Shown here piece by piece: positions 5,462 through 11,094 of a DNA stretch of 64,000 nt (position 1 is its first letter; the number at the start of each line of letters is the position of its first letter). The position numbers and the translations under genes were made by a program. Source of the stretch: a virus; IMG/VR virus record IMGVR_UViG_3300032770_000001, positions 123,931 through 187,930 of that record; one strand, 5' to 3'. The notes beneath the pieces are model-generated. The model was not told where the DNA came from. It saw only the letters and a program-made list of their open reading frames with translations, and did not search any database.

Positions 5462-6250
5462 ATGAAGCTGAAGTACACGAAGGAAATGTTAGAGCCGTTG
5501 GTGCGAGAGAGCACCAGTTTTCGGCAGGTCATTGACAAGCTGGGTATACGTCAGGGCGGCGGCACTCAGGCTAACCTTGTTCGTCGCATTAAGGCGCATG
5601 GATTAGACACGTCTCATTTCCTCGGACAGGCGCACGGTCGCGGTAAGCTTCGCGTTCGTTTAATTGCTTCGGAGGTTCTCGTCAATAATCGGACAGGTCG
5701 CAGAGAACACACCGATGTGCTTAGACGGGTGATGTTGGAATCGGGCGTCCCGTACCACTGTGAGCTATGTCCTAATGATGGAACTTGGCAGGGCCGACCG
5801 ATAGTTTTGGAGATCGATCACCGGAACGGAAACAATCTGGATAATCGATTGGAGAATCTTCGATTCCTCTGTCCGAACTGCCATAGCCAACAGGTGACGG
5901 ATGGTTCGAAAAATATTGCACTTCGTGAATTTGAGAAAAAACAAGGCTGGGTTTTGAAGGATAGTACGACGCCAACGGAGTTCATGGCTAAGCACTACGA
6001 GGAATTGGCTAATAAAGTGCGCGAGCGATATCCGGATATGGCGTCAATGTTGGAGAGAATTGCGGATAAAGTCCGCTCCTACCTCAGCATGAACAAGGCA
6101 ACGGTTCGCGTGTTCATTCGTGCTGACGGACAAGGCGCTACTTTTTATGTGCAGGGCGATGAGGAATGTGATGCGATTGCAAAAGTCCGCGATCTGGCTC
6201 GCGACCTCACGAAAGAAGCGCAGGAGGGTACAAGATTTCGTTTAGTTTGA
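5462..6250 (+). CDS. HNH homing-type endonuclease
   Basis: 262 aa. Residues about 95-145 form a Cys-framed HNH nuclease: CELC, then LEIDHRNGNNLDNRLENL with the catalytic DH pair, then CPNCHSQ. The N-terminal 60 residues look like a DNA-binding region (FRQVIDKLGIRQGGGTQ, similar to an IENR/NUMOD-type helix-turn-helix). The C-terminal 80 residues form a separate helical and strand domain. ATG 5462 is preferred because AGGTC lies 6-10 bases upstream and it is coupled to a mini-frame stop; ATG 5420 in frame is an alternative. It sits within the tRNA-Leu array and probably moves as a mobile gene. Confidence 0.85.
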   Translation: MKLKYTKEMLEPLVRESTSFRQVIDKLGIRQGGGTQANLVRRIKAHGLDTSHFLGQAHGRGKLRVRLIASEVLVNNRTGRREHTDVLRRVMLESGVPYHCELCPNDGTWQGRPIVLEIDHRNGNNLDNRLENLRFLCPNCHSQQVTDGSKNIALREFEKKQGWVLKDSTTPTEFMAKHYEELANKVRERYPDMASMLERIADKVRSYLSMNKATVRVFIRADGQGATFYVQGDEECDAIAKVRDLARDLTKEAQEGTRFRLV

Positions 6251-7581: not shown

Positions 7582-7863
7582 GTGGATGACCGCGACACGT
7601 TCGACCGCAAGTGCGTAGAGTTGCACATGGCGGTCTATTTTCACATGCAGGCGATTCAGTTCGCCGACGAGCGCAACGCCGAGCCGGGGGAGATGCGTGA
7701 ACTCCTGAAACGGCGAACCGATCTGGTTCAGGAAGCGTTGGATTACGTCTACGAGCATTGGGAGTATCTGGACGAGCCGACCAAGAAAGATTGGGAAGCT
7801 GCGGCTGCGGAGTTCCCACTAGCGAGAGAGAATGAAAACAGCGAAGCTACCGACGAAGATTGA
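7582..7863 (+). CDS. hypothetical helical protein
   Basis: 93 aa, GTG start. No SD; the start lies just after GGTATTAT, suggesting a leaderless message. Mostly amphipathic helix, very acidic C terminus (ENENSEATDED). Overlaps the NADAR gene by 32 bases. Confidence 0.55.
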   Translation: MDDRDTFDRKCVELHMAVYFHMQAIQFADERNAEPGEMRELLKRRTDLVQEALDYVYEHWEYLDEPTKKDWEAAAAEFPLARENENSEATDED

Positions 7864-8479
7864 CAGTTTCCGGGGCGTATACCGCTTCCTGTCGAACTTC
7901 TACGAGAACTGCCCGGTGAAGCTGTGGGTGAGCACCAAGGGCAAGGTCTTTGCGAATTACGATGGGCTCTACGGAATTGTCGAGCACATCAACTCGTTCA
8001 ATCATCTGCCGGACGATCATCCGGATCGCGATTTTCTGTACTGGATTGAGACTTACGACAACGTCGAGAATGCGTATCAGGCGGCGAAGTCCCTCGACAT
8101 AAACGTTCGTGAGAAGTTCCGTGTTCGCGGCCTGCGTCCGTGGGATGCGAAGAAGCTTGGCGGCACAGTGAAACTACGTCCTGATTGGGATACAGGCACC
8201 GGGACTATGCCGCCGTTTAAGATTGTGGTCATGCTCGGTTTGCTGATGCAGAAATTTGAGCCGACCATGCTACGGCGTCGTCTGCTTTCAACGATGACGG
8301 CTGAATTGATTGAGGGCAACAACTGGCACGACACGTATTGGGGCGTCTGCGACGGGAATTGCAACGAAGGTCCGCATGAACCGTTCGGCACCAACCATCT
8401 CGGCAGGCTGCTGATGATCGTGCGAGGGTATCACGGAGGTTTGTACGATGGCACGAGTATTCTTACAGCGCGTCAGTGA
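7832..8479 (+). CDS. NADAR (YbiA-like) family protein
   Basis: 215 aa. Family landmarks occur in order: FRGVYRFLSNFYENC near residue 13, ENAYQAAKSLD near 80, RPWDAKKLGG near 105, MLGLLMQKF near 133, then LIEGNNWHDTYWGVC (about 155-170) and GTNHLGRLLM (about 187). NADAR proteins act on N-glycosidic bonds of NAD- or ADP-ribose-linked compounds; some reverse ADP-ribosylation of guanine in DNA placed by DarT-type toxins, others (RibX/YbiA) act on riboflavin intermediates. In a phage, protection against host ADP-ribosylation or handling of NAD breakdown products is a reasonable inference. The start has GAGAGAG upstream and lies inside the preceding gene. Confidence 0.85.
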   Translation: MKTAKLPTKIDSFRGVYRFLSNFYENCPVKLWVSTKGKVFANYDGLYGIVEHINSFNHLPDDHPDRDFLYWIETYDNVENAYQAAKSLDINVREKFRVRGLRPWDAKKLGGTVKLRPDWDTGTGTMPPFKIVVMLGLLMQKFEPTMLRRRLLSTMTAELIEGNNWHDTYWGVCDGNCNEGPHEPFGTNHLGRLLMIVRGYHGGLYDGTSILTARQ

Positions 8480-9731: not shown

Positions 9732-9807
9732 CGGTGTGTAGCTCAATGGCTAGAGCACTCGGTTTGGGGCCGAGGGGTTGGGGGTTCGAGTCCCTCCACG
9801 CCGACCA
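9732..9807 (+). tRNA. tRNA-Pro(TGG), second copy
   Basis: Acceptor CGGTGTG/CACGCCG with CCA, anticodon arm CTCGG-TTTGGGG-CCGAG (TGG). The sequence differs from the first TGG isoacceptor, so it is not a recent duplicate. Confidence 0.92.
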
Positions 9808-9822
9808 TTTTGGAGAACGAAC

Positions 9823-10483
9823 ATGATTGTTGAAATTCGAGCAGCGGAAGGTGGAGATGACGCAAAGCTTCTCGTGTCCGACCAACTCACGATCTATGCG
9901 AGATTGGCGGCTCGGAGGGGTCTTTGAGTTTGAGATAACCGAAGAACGTCCCGGCATAGCGGTGTTTCAGGTGACGGGACAGGGAGCCCCGGCGTTGTTT
10001 GCAAATGAGAGCGGGGGGCACCGTTGGCAGCGAGTTCCGCCGACCGAACGATACGGACGACGGCAGACATCGACAATCACTGTCGCAGTTTTCGAGGAGC
10101 CGAAGGTCGAAGAGATCAACATTCGTGCTCAGGATTTAGAGTGGGATACGTTCCGGAGCCGTGGTAAGGGCGGACAGAACGTTAACAAGGTCGAGACGGC
10201 TGTTCGCGTGACGCACAAGCCGAGTGGCTTGGTCGTGCGTTGTGAGAATGGCCGTAGTCAGTGGCATAATAAGCGAACCGCTTTGCAGATTCTTGCGGCA
10301 CGGTTGGAAGCGCGAGATCGAGAGCAGAGACAAAGCGTAGTGGTTGCAGATCGTCGGTCGCAGATCGGCACAGGGCAGCGAGGCGACAAACGTCGTACAG
10401 CAAACGAGCGACAGGATCAAGTCACGGATCATGTCACCGGGCAGAAATGGCGCTATACTGATTACGTGAAGGGGAACTGGTAA
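9823..10483 (+). CDS. peptide chain release factor, +1 frameshifted
   Basis: Two frames join. ATG 9823 (GGAG upstream) codes 34 residues beginning MIVEIRAAEGGDDAKLL, matching the EIRA-x-GGDEA start of the class I release factor core, and meets TGA 9925-9927. After a +1 slip on CTT-T the second frame continues EFEITEERP to TAA 10481-10483, giving about 219 aa. It holds ESGGHRWQRVPPTE (stop-codon-reading loop, PxT type at about residues 72-74, as in RF1) and RGKGGQNVNKVET with the catalytic GGQ at about 116-118. The N-terminal domain 1 of full RF1/RF2 is missing, as in PrfH. The stop overlaps the start of an RNA ligase gene. It likely hydrolyses peptidyl-tRNA at UAA/UAG or on damaged ribosomes. 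Confidence 0.88.
9914..9928 (+). promoter_or_regulatory. programmed +1 frameshift site
   Basis: GGAGG-GGT-CTT-TGA: an SD-like GGAGG (9914-9918), three bases, then CTT (9922-9924) and in-frame TGA (9925-9927). This mirrors the bacterial prfB signal (AGGGGG, three bases, CTT TGA), where slow UGA termination promotes a +1 slip. Confidence 0.88.
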
Positions 10484-11094
10484 TGGAACAGTATCCGAGT
10501 ATCGACGGTAGCAGCAAAGCACCCATAGGGGTTCCGTGCATCGCTTTTTATAAGTACGACGGCTCTAACCTTCGATGGGAGTGGAACCCCAAGAAGGGCT
10601 GGTTCAAGTTCGGTACGCGGACGCAGTTGTTCGGTAAGGATGATCCGTTGTGGGGCAAGGCGGTGCCGATTTTCATGAACCAACTGGCGGATGAGATCGT
10701 GTACCGGGTCAAGCACGTGGAGCGGGGCTGTCAGCGGATCACGGCGTTCACGGAGTTTTTCGGATCGGGGACATTCGCCGGACAGCACCCGGAGATGACT
10801 GGCGGCAGCGAGGAGAAGGAATTGAGGCTCTTCGATGTCTACCTGTTCAAGCGGGGCTTGATGAAACCTCGGCAGTTCGTGAAGAGTTTTGGCGATCTAC
10901 CGCAGGCGGCTCAGGTGATCTATGATGGAAACCTGAACCGACAGTTCATCGAAGACGTTCGGATGGGGCTGTACCCAGTGAATGAGGGGGTGGTTGCGAA
11001 GGGTGACGATTTCATGGTGAAGATCAAGACCTACGCATACCTGAAGCGGCTGAACGAAGTTTACGGAACTGCATATCGGAACTATTGGGAGTAA
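10483..11094 (+). CDS. RNA ligase (Rnl2-like nucleotidyltransferase)
   Basis: 203 aa. Ligase motifs in order: I at K24 (FYKYDGSNLRW; Lys forms the AMP adduct), III (AFTEFFGSG, about 88-96), IIIa (LRLFDVYLF, about 110-118), IV (NEGVVAKG, about 167-174) and V (MVKIKTYAY, about 178-186). It is close to a minimal catalytic core, with little room for an accessory domain. It joins 5'-phosphate and 3'-OH RNA ends using ATP. The start overlaps the release factor stop (TAATG), so both are made together; repair of cleaved tRNA or rRNA is the natural inference. Confidence 0.85.
   Translation: MEQYPSIDGSSKAPIGVPCIAFYKYDGSNLRWEWNPKKGWFKFGTRTQLFGKDDPLWGKAVPIFMNQLADEIVYRVKHVERGCQRITAFTEFFGSGTFAGQHPEMTGGSEEKELRLFDVYLFKRGLMKPRQFVKSFGDLPQAAQVIYDGNLNRQFIEDVRMGLYPVNEGVVAKGDDFMVKIKTYAYLKRLNEVYGTAYRNYWE

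Follow-up and report, generated by a model that had tools for sequence, protein, structure and literature searches.

Release factors are the proteins that end translation. Here, we report a gene for an RF1-like release factor that is laid out in two reading frames within a stretch of 64,000 nt (the window), i.e., bases 123,931 to 187,930 of the 455,708-bp record of a huge phage. Re-reading of the window confirmed to the base what a first-pass annotation had noticed, i.e., a 0-frame that ends at CTT-TGA with GGAGG three bases upstream, followed by all remaining release factor motifs in the +1 frame. The features of the locus are listed below:

9732–9807, plus strand: tRNA-Pro (TGG), directly 5′ of the factor gene; a tRNA array surrounds the gene
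9812–9815, plus strand: SD-like GGAG, 7 nt upstream of the ATG, seen in the sequence
9823–9825, plus strand: ATG start, opening the 0-frame
9823–9927, plus strand: 0-frame ORF MIVEIRAAEGGDD...ARRGL with stop TGA; 34 codons, the first 34 residues of the factor and the start of domain 2
9914–9918, plus strand: internal SD-like GGAGG, 3 nt 5′ of the slip codon
9922–9927, plus strand: slip codon CTT and gate stop TGA; with a +1 slip, CTT is followed by GAG as the next codon
9925–9927, plus strand: gate stop TGA, closing the 0-frame after 34 codons
9926–10483, plus strand: +1-frame ORF from GAG (9926–9928) to TAA (10481–10483), with PxT loop (PPT) and GGQ domain
9823–10483, plus strand: whole recoded gene for a 219-aa RF1-like release factor without domain 1
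10483–11094, plus strand: downstream ORF overlapping through TAATG; by eye, KYDGSN, EGVVAKG, and VKIKT resemble nucleotidyltransferase/ligase motifs

The 0-frame ends as CGG AGG GGT CTT TGA G, where GGT (9919–9921) is the spacer between GGAGG and the slip codon CTT (9922–9924). An SD-like stretch 3 nt 5′ of the slip codon and CTT-T running into a stop are both features of the prfB type; the base 3′ of the gate TGA is G, so the C after the stop of prfB is missing. The 0-frame ORF shows third-position bias in its own frame and a Pfam PCRF match from residue 2. No stimulatory RNA structure is supported at the slip site (z-score −0.06). The cassette GGAGG-N3-CTT-T(GA/AG/AA) has a single occurrence in the entire 455.7-kb record; being unique there and kept in relatives, it is no chance match. 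Ribosomes translating the window's gene would presumably shift +1 at this CTT-TGA.

The fused product (read through CTT, then +1) is 219 aa long and carries both the PxT loop, as PPT within GGHRWQRVPPTERYGRRQTS, and the GGQ motif, as GKGGQN; Pfam places PCRF from residue 2 and RF-1 at residues 96–203. In the comparison with RF1, RF2, and PrfH that the first-pass annotation had called for, RF1 models scored highest (221.4 and 215.2 bits; E about 1e-65 for the best), with RF2 at 149 bits and PrfH at 107.2 bits, and the best PDB matches are RF1 structures whose alignment crosses the frame junction unbroken. Both the HMM scores and the PxT loop make the product RF1-like, in line with the initial assignment. 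All curated cutoffs lie above these scores (RF1 equivalog, 400–423 bits; PrfH, 166.65 bits), and the product is not an RF1 equivalog, as domain 1 is absent: the RF1 HMM matches begin only at RF1 position 107 or 115, just as the missing domain 1 had been described. It is not an RF2 either, with a PPT rather than an SPF loop and an RF2 score well below that of RF1, nor a PrfH, given the score under that cutoff and a neighboring ORF (10483–11094) that has no Pfam or PDB match. Judged from its recognition loop, the factor would read UAA and UAG. No other release-factor domain was found in the window's virus record.

Searching phage records by tblastn returned LR745208.1, whose factor has 49% amino acid identity and, at the corresponding codon, exactly the same 15 nt (CGGAGGGGTCTTTGA). 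A scan with this 15-mer gave 66 matches, 17 of which are loci encoding a relative, while the remainder look like chance matches; a single-protein scan of viral contigs gave no relatives. Scans of viral contigs and bacterial genomes, with identical proteins removed and the window included, yielded 147 sequences, of which 103 shift +1 at CTT-T, 30 contain an in-frame TGA, and 14 show neither feature, the last including ordinary RF1. Protein search patterns favored the GGHRWQR loop, so odd loops are perhaps under-sampled; a DNA pattern containing TGA was the sole source of just two members (L068 and L094) and hence added little to the TGA count. In 99 of the 103 shifted members, the distance from the Glu codon of the EIR motif to the stop is 93 nt; it is 96 nt in L042 and 123 nt in the bacterial L251, L256, and L258. 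In a first, unfiltered look at frame breaks, CTT preceded the stop at every clean +1 break; in the final set of 103, which was built with CTT as a requirement, it occupies the slip codon in 103/103 vs 11.8% of other Leu codons in the same genes. Most shifted members have GGAGG or a similar stretch at the 3-nt spacing, and 14 have no SD-like stretch of at least 4. The base after the gate stop is C in 72%, G in 22%, and T in 1% of shifted members. A cassette common to 103 distinct sequences bears out the initial call of a genuine prfB-like +1 frameshift signal.

Pooled pairs of relatives show substitutions by codon position of 35/29/140 upstream of the site in frame 0 and of 346/242/902 downstream in frame +1. 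In 43 of the 103, the stretch of the +1 frame from its last stop to the slip site is free of start codons, and separate initiation therefore cannot account for the second frame in those members. Both frames are selected as one joined protein, which is not a pseudogene.

The gene is not confined to phages: it is present in isolate myxobacterial chromosomes. Bacterial assemblies contribute 39 of the 103 shifted members; the isolates include Minicystis rosea DSM 24000, Nannocystis exedens DSM 71, N. poenicansa FL3, Archangium lansinium, and Pyxidicoccus fallax, and many other bacterial matches are MAG contigs, possibly phage. The isolate genomes checked have, beside the short gene, further, longer RF-1-domain genes; in Minicystis and Nannocystis, a gene for RF2 that bears the usual CTTTGA cassette was seen. 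Within Nannocystis, the gene lies within about 10 kb of gene order kept across species.

The gate stop itself is variable. It is TGA in 79, TAG in 22, and TAA in 2 of the 103 shifted members, and parsimony on a quick tree with the gate residue masked and many weak forks requires 20 gate-stop changes among them; for the TAG label alone there are 18 changes, 7 of which are forced by well-supported branches. Even the window's nearest kin differ, i.e., TGA in L009 and L011, TAG in L014 and L012. TAA is rare although it is a one-step intermediate and a common terminator, and nearly every gate uses one of the two stops that only one release factor reads (UGA or UAG). The RF1 loop PPT is retained in the window and in the majority of members, and for all 15 proteins that were scanned the best E-value came from an RF1 model. 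Other members have N, G, S, or L in place of the T of PxT, or a shorter loop, and stop specificity may be relaxed in these. The shortened stop-recognition loops were seen in shifted L002/L061, L021, L031, and L042, e.g., QRTSNGRIHSS and WQHAPTGKVHTS. We considered a match between loop type and gate codon and dropped it, as no association was found (Fisher p = 0.13).

Sensing of host RF2, which the first-pass annotation had suggested, is not supported as a general rule: TGA is exchanged for TAG or TAA in 24 members through about 20 or more gate changes, those among the nearest kin included. Since the gate stops interchange and loop type does not follow the gate, the conserved feature of the gated family is the need to bypass some stop and not RF2 sensing. 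A gate is lacking altogether in some relatives. Genome-wide usage of UGA is higher in phages whose gate is UGA (p = 0.02, n = 19), a weak and kinship-confounded trend. In the stretches read, all shifted phages sampled end ORFs with each of UAA, UAG, and UGA, except G016 (UAG and UGA), and because these stops are in use as terminators, neither UGA nor UAG is globally reassigned there.

Relatives without the shift mostly have an in-frame UGA early in the gene, as in the 30 mentioned above. In a clade of 18, every one of the 26 UGA codons falls in the first 140 nt past EIR, and every one of the 30 UGG codons falls beyond that stretch (p = 1.5e-16). We tried UGA = Trp in these sister phages and rejected it: UGA is an ordinary stop over 20 to 440 kb of several of them, it ends 20 to 23% of ORFs in W02 and G029 (440 kb each), no UCA-anticodon tRNA was seen in the same 440 kb of either, and the AT-rich phages have few in-frame UGA in long ORFs vs many UGG. 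Because they use the standard code, these sister phages are no argument that PPT factors cannot read UGA. The in-frame UGA codons are candidate readthrough gates in phages that, where checked, use the standard code; selenocysteine at these codons is possible as well. RNA-family matches near the in-frame UGA at eleven loci were tRNAs only (Rfam, gathering score). Two in-frame UGA, 24 or 39 nt apart, are present in L003, L005, L025, L029, L032, L044, L051, and L225. In L136, L144, and L237 the in-frame TGA sits exactly at the frameshift position (+93), after CTC, CTA, or CTG and before CTG or CTA, and here it looks like frameshifting was exchanged for readthrough at one site.

Around the window's gene, the tRNA region also encodes a NADAR-domain protein (7832–8479). 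At about 25.9 kb in the window's own record there are two CUA-anticodon tRNAs, i.e., possible UAG suppressors (L315 positions 5853–5930 and 5980–6053, minus strand); the phage otherwise uses UAG as a stop and has 61 tRNA genes and a tmRNA in all. G029 has three CUA-anticodon tRNAs.

The reading we favor, and consider rather probable, is an accessory RF1-type factor without domain 1 that would be made on demand, through bypass of its built-in stop, when termination is slow. As we picture it, the ribosome would pause with CTT in the P site and the stop in the A site while the upstream GGAGG pairs with 16S rRNA, and with slow termination the peptidyl-tRNA-Leu would slip +1 from CUU to UUU. A gate stop served by one factor should report shortage of that factor, i.e., RF2 for the UGA of the window. 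Slow reading of UGA, with host RF2 limiting, would raise synthesis of a factor that itself should read UAA and UAG; it could then take over UAA, and RF2 would be freed for UGA. UAA ends 58% of the longer ORFs of the window's phage. Classical self-regulation is not expected in the window, because a PxT-loop product should read UAA/UAG, and simple feedback by a UAA/UAG factor on its own synthesis would not lead one to expect a TGA majority at the gate; where the gate is TAG, as in some relatives, the circuit would limit itself. Host-RF2 sensing through the UGA gate is plausible in the window's phage, and both the response to release factor levels and the benefit of relieving RF2 are predictions of this reading. 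For the family, we give an even chance to the wider proposal that an unrecognized RF1-type family of phages and myxobacterial chromosomes, most of it behind a bypassable stop (UGA, UAG, or UAA frameshift, or UGA readthrough), serves as a termination-stress switch, in which the UAG gate would be the missing RF1 counterpart of prfB autoregulation and the UGA gate would couple an RF1-type factor to RF2 shortage.

If the factor had relaxed specificity and read all three stops, any gate would give negative feedback, i.e., plain autoregulation as in prfB/RF2. The interchangeable gate stops, the loop types that do not follow the gate codon, the often replaced T of PxT, and the loop shortening in four shifted proteins all fit this idea; the PPT kept by most members and the RF1 models as best match for every member scanned do not, and an all-stop reader would not predict the rarity of TAA at the gate. 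We regard it as unlikely.

We judge it decidedly improbable that the cassette acts as a throttle of fixed ratio, with no sensing, to limit the amount of a harmful factor; any leaky stop would then suffice. Release factor overexpression does lower fitness in B. subtilis (PMC12421855), and a gate persists while its stop codon changes and its bypass switches between frameshift and in-frame UGA. A weak ribosome-binding site, however, would achieve as much; the regulated prfB cassette has this exact SD spacing and this weak-termination context, and the TAA rarity points to single-factor stops.

A PrfH-like rescue factor tied to RNA repair on damaged ribosomes, with the ligase-like downstream gene as its partner, seems highly improbable. 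Domain 1 is missing as in PrfH and the ligase-like ORF overlaps the factor gene, but the PrfH score (107 bits) is under the cutoff and far below that of RF1, the PxT loop is kept, and there is no sign of RtcB. Three close relatives have the ligase-like ORF in the vicinity of the factor, and two others have a weak match there; it is not family-wide, and a conserved factor–ligase operon was rejected, the neighbor being lineage-specific.

A sequencing or assembly error, which the first-pass annotation had named as its refutation, or a decaying gene or two separate ORFs, has a negligible chance: the frame break itself is all that suggests it, together with one Nannocystis pusilla Na p29 copy (L239) in which two single bases are missing, probably assembly errors, and it is refuted by the same break in 103 distinct sequences, by selection in both frames, and by a second ORF that has no start codon in 43 members.

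The recoding mechanism is already known. Frameshifting in prfB responds to slow termination, and a UAG/RF1 counterpart has been called unknown (PMC5009743); no programmed frameshift was found in prfA (PMC12421855), no RF1 autoregulation is known (PMC8073009), and recoding of an RF1 gene is not reported in these three papers. RF1 and RF2 genes have been noted among the translation genes of huge phages (PMC7162821), in whose main text the word "frameshift" is absent. The literature searched, which included few subscription papers (priority is not proven), contains no description of the gene family, its RF1-type product, the domain-2 site, TAG gates, or a frameshift that alternates with in-frame UGA. 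Autoregulatory frameshifting had been thought limited to RF2, and genes of the present kind may be mis-annotated as pseudogenes or two ORFs. The repeated gate swaps make it testable whether the identity of the gate stop wires the gene to RF1 or RF2.

Compared with RF1 (prfA), the window's factor has a similar sequence, the PxT loop, GGQ, and RF1 structures as its top PDB matches, whereas domain 1 is missing, the score is far below the equivalog cutoff, and the gene is recoded. PrfH of the RtcB2–PrfH operon is likewise a release factor that has about 200 aa and lacks domain 1, but the window's factor has the PxT loop and an RF1-like sequence, with no RtcB partner seen. The class-I factor of Mimivirus and Megavirus (PMC3521657) is also a large virus's own factor with internal stops bypassed by frameshift and readthrough; that protein, however, is of eukaryotic/archaeal type and unrelated, and the Mimivirus factor uses frameshift and readthrough together, whereas in our family the frameshift and in-frame UGA are alternatives. 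With prfB the family shares the SD-like stretch 3 nt before CTT, the CTT-T slip, the A-site stop, the class-I product, and, in most members, the weak termination context, although the C usual after the prfB stop is G in the window. The product here is RF1-like and without domain 1, and the gate is TAG in 22/103, while 8,164 prfB motifs are 98.6% TGA and none is TAG (PMC12421855). The prfB site lies ahead of domain 1 and the site here within domain 2; as the shared cassette sits elsewhere in the fold, the two probably arose separately.
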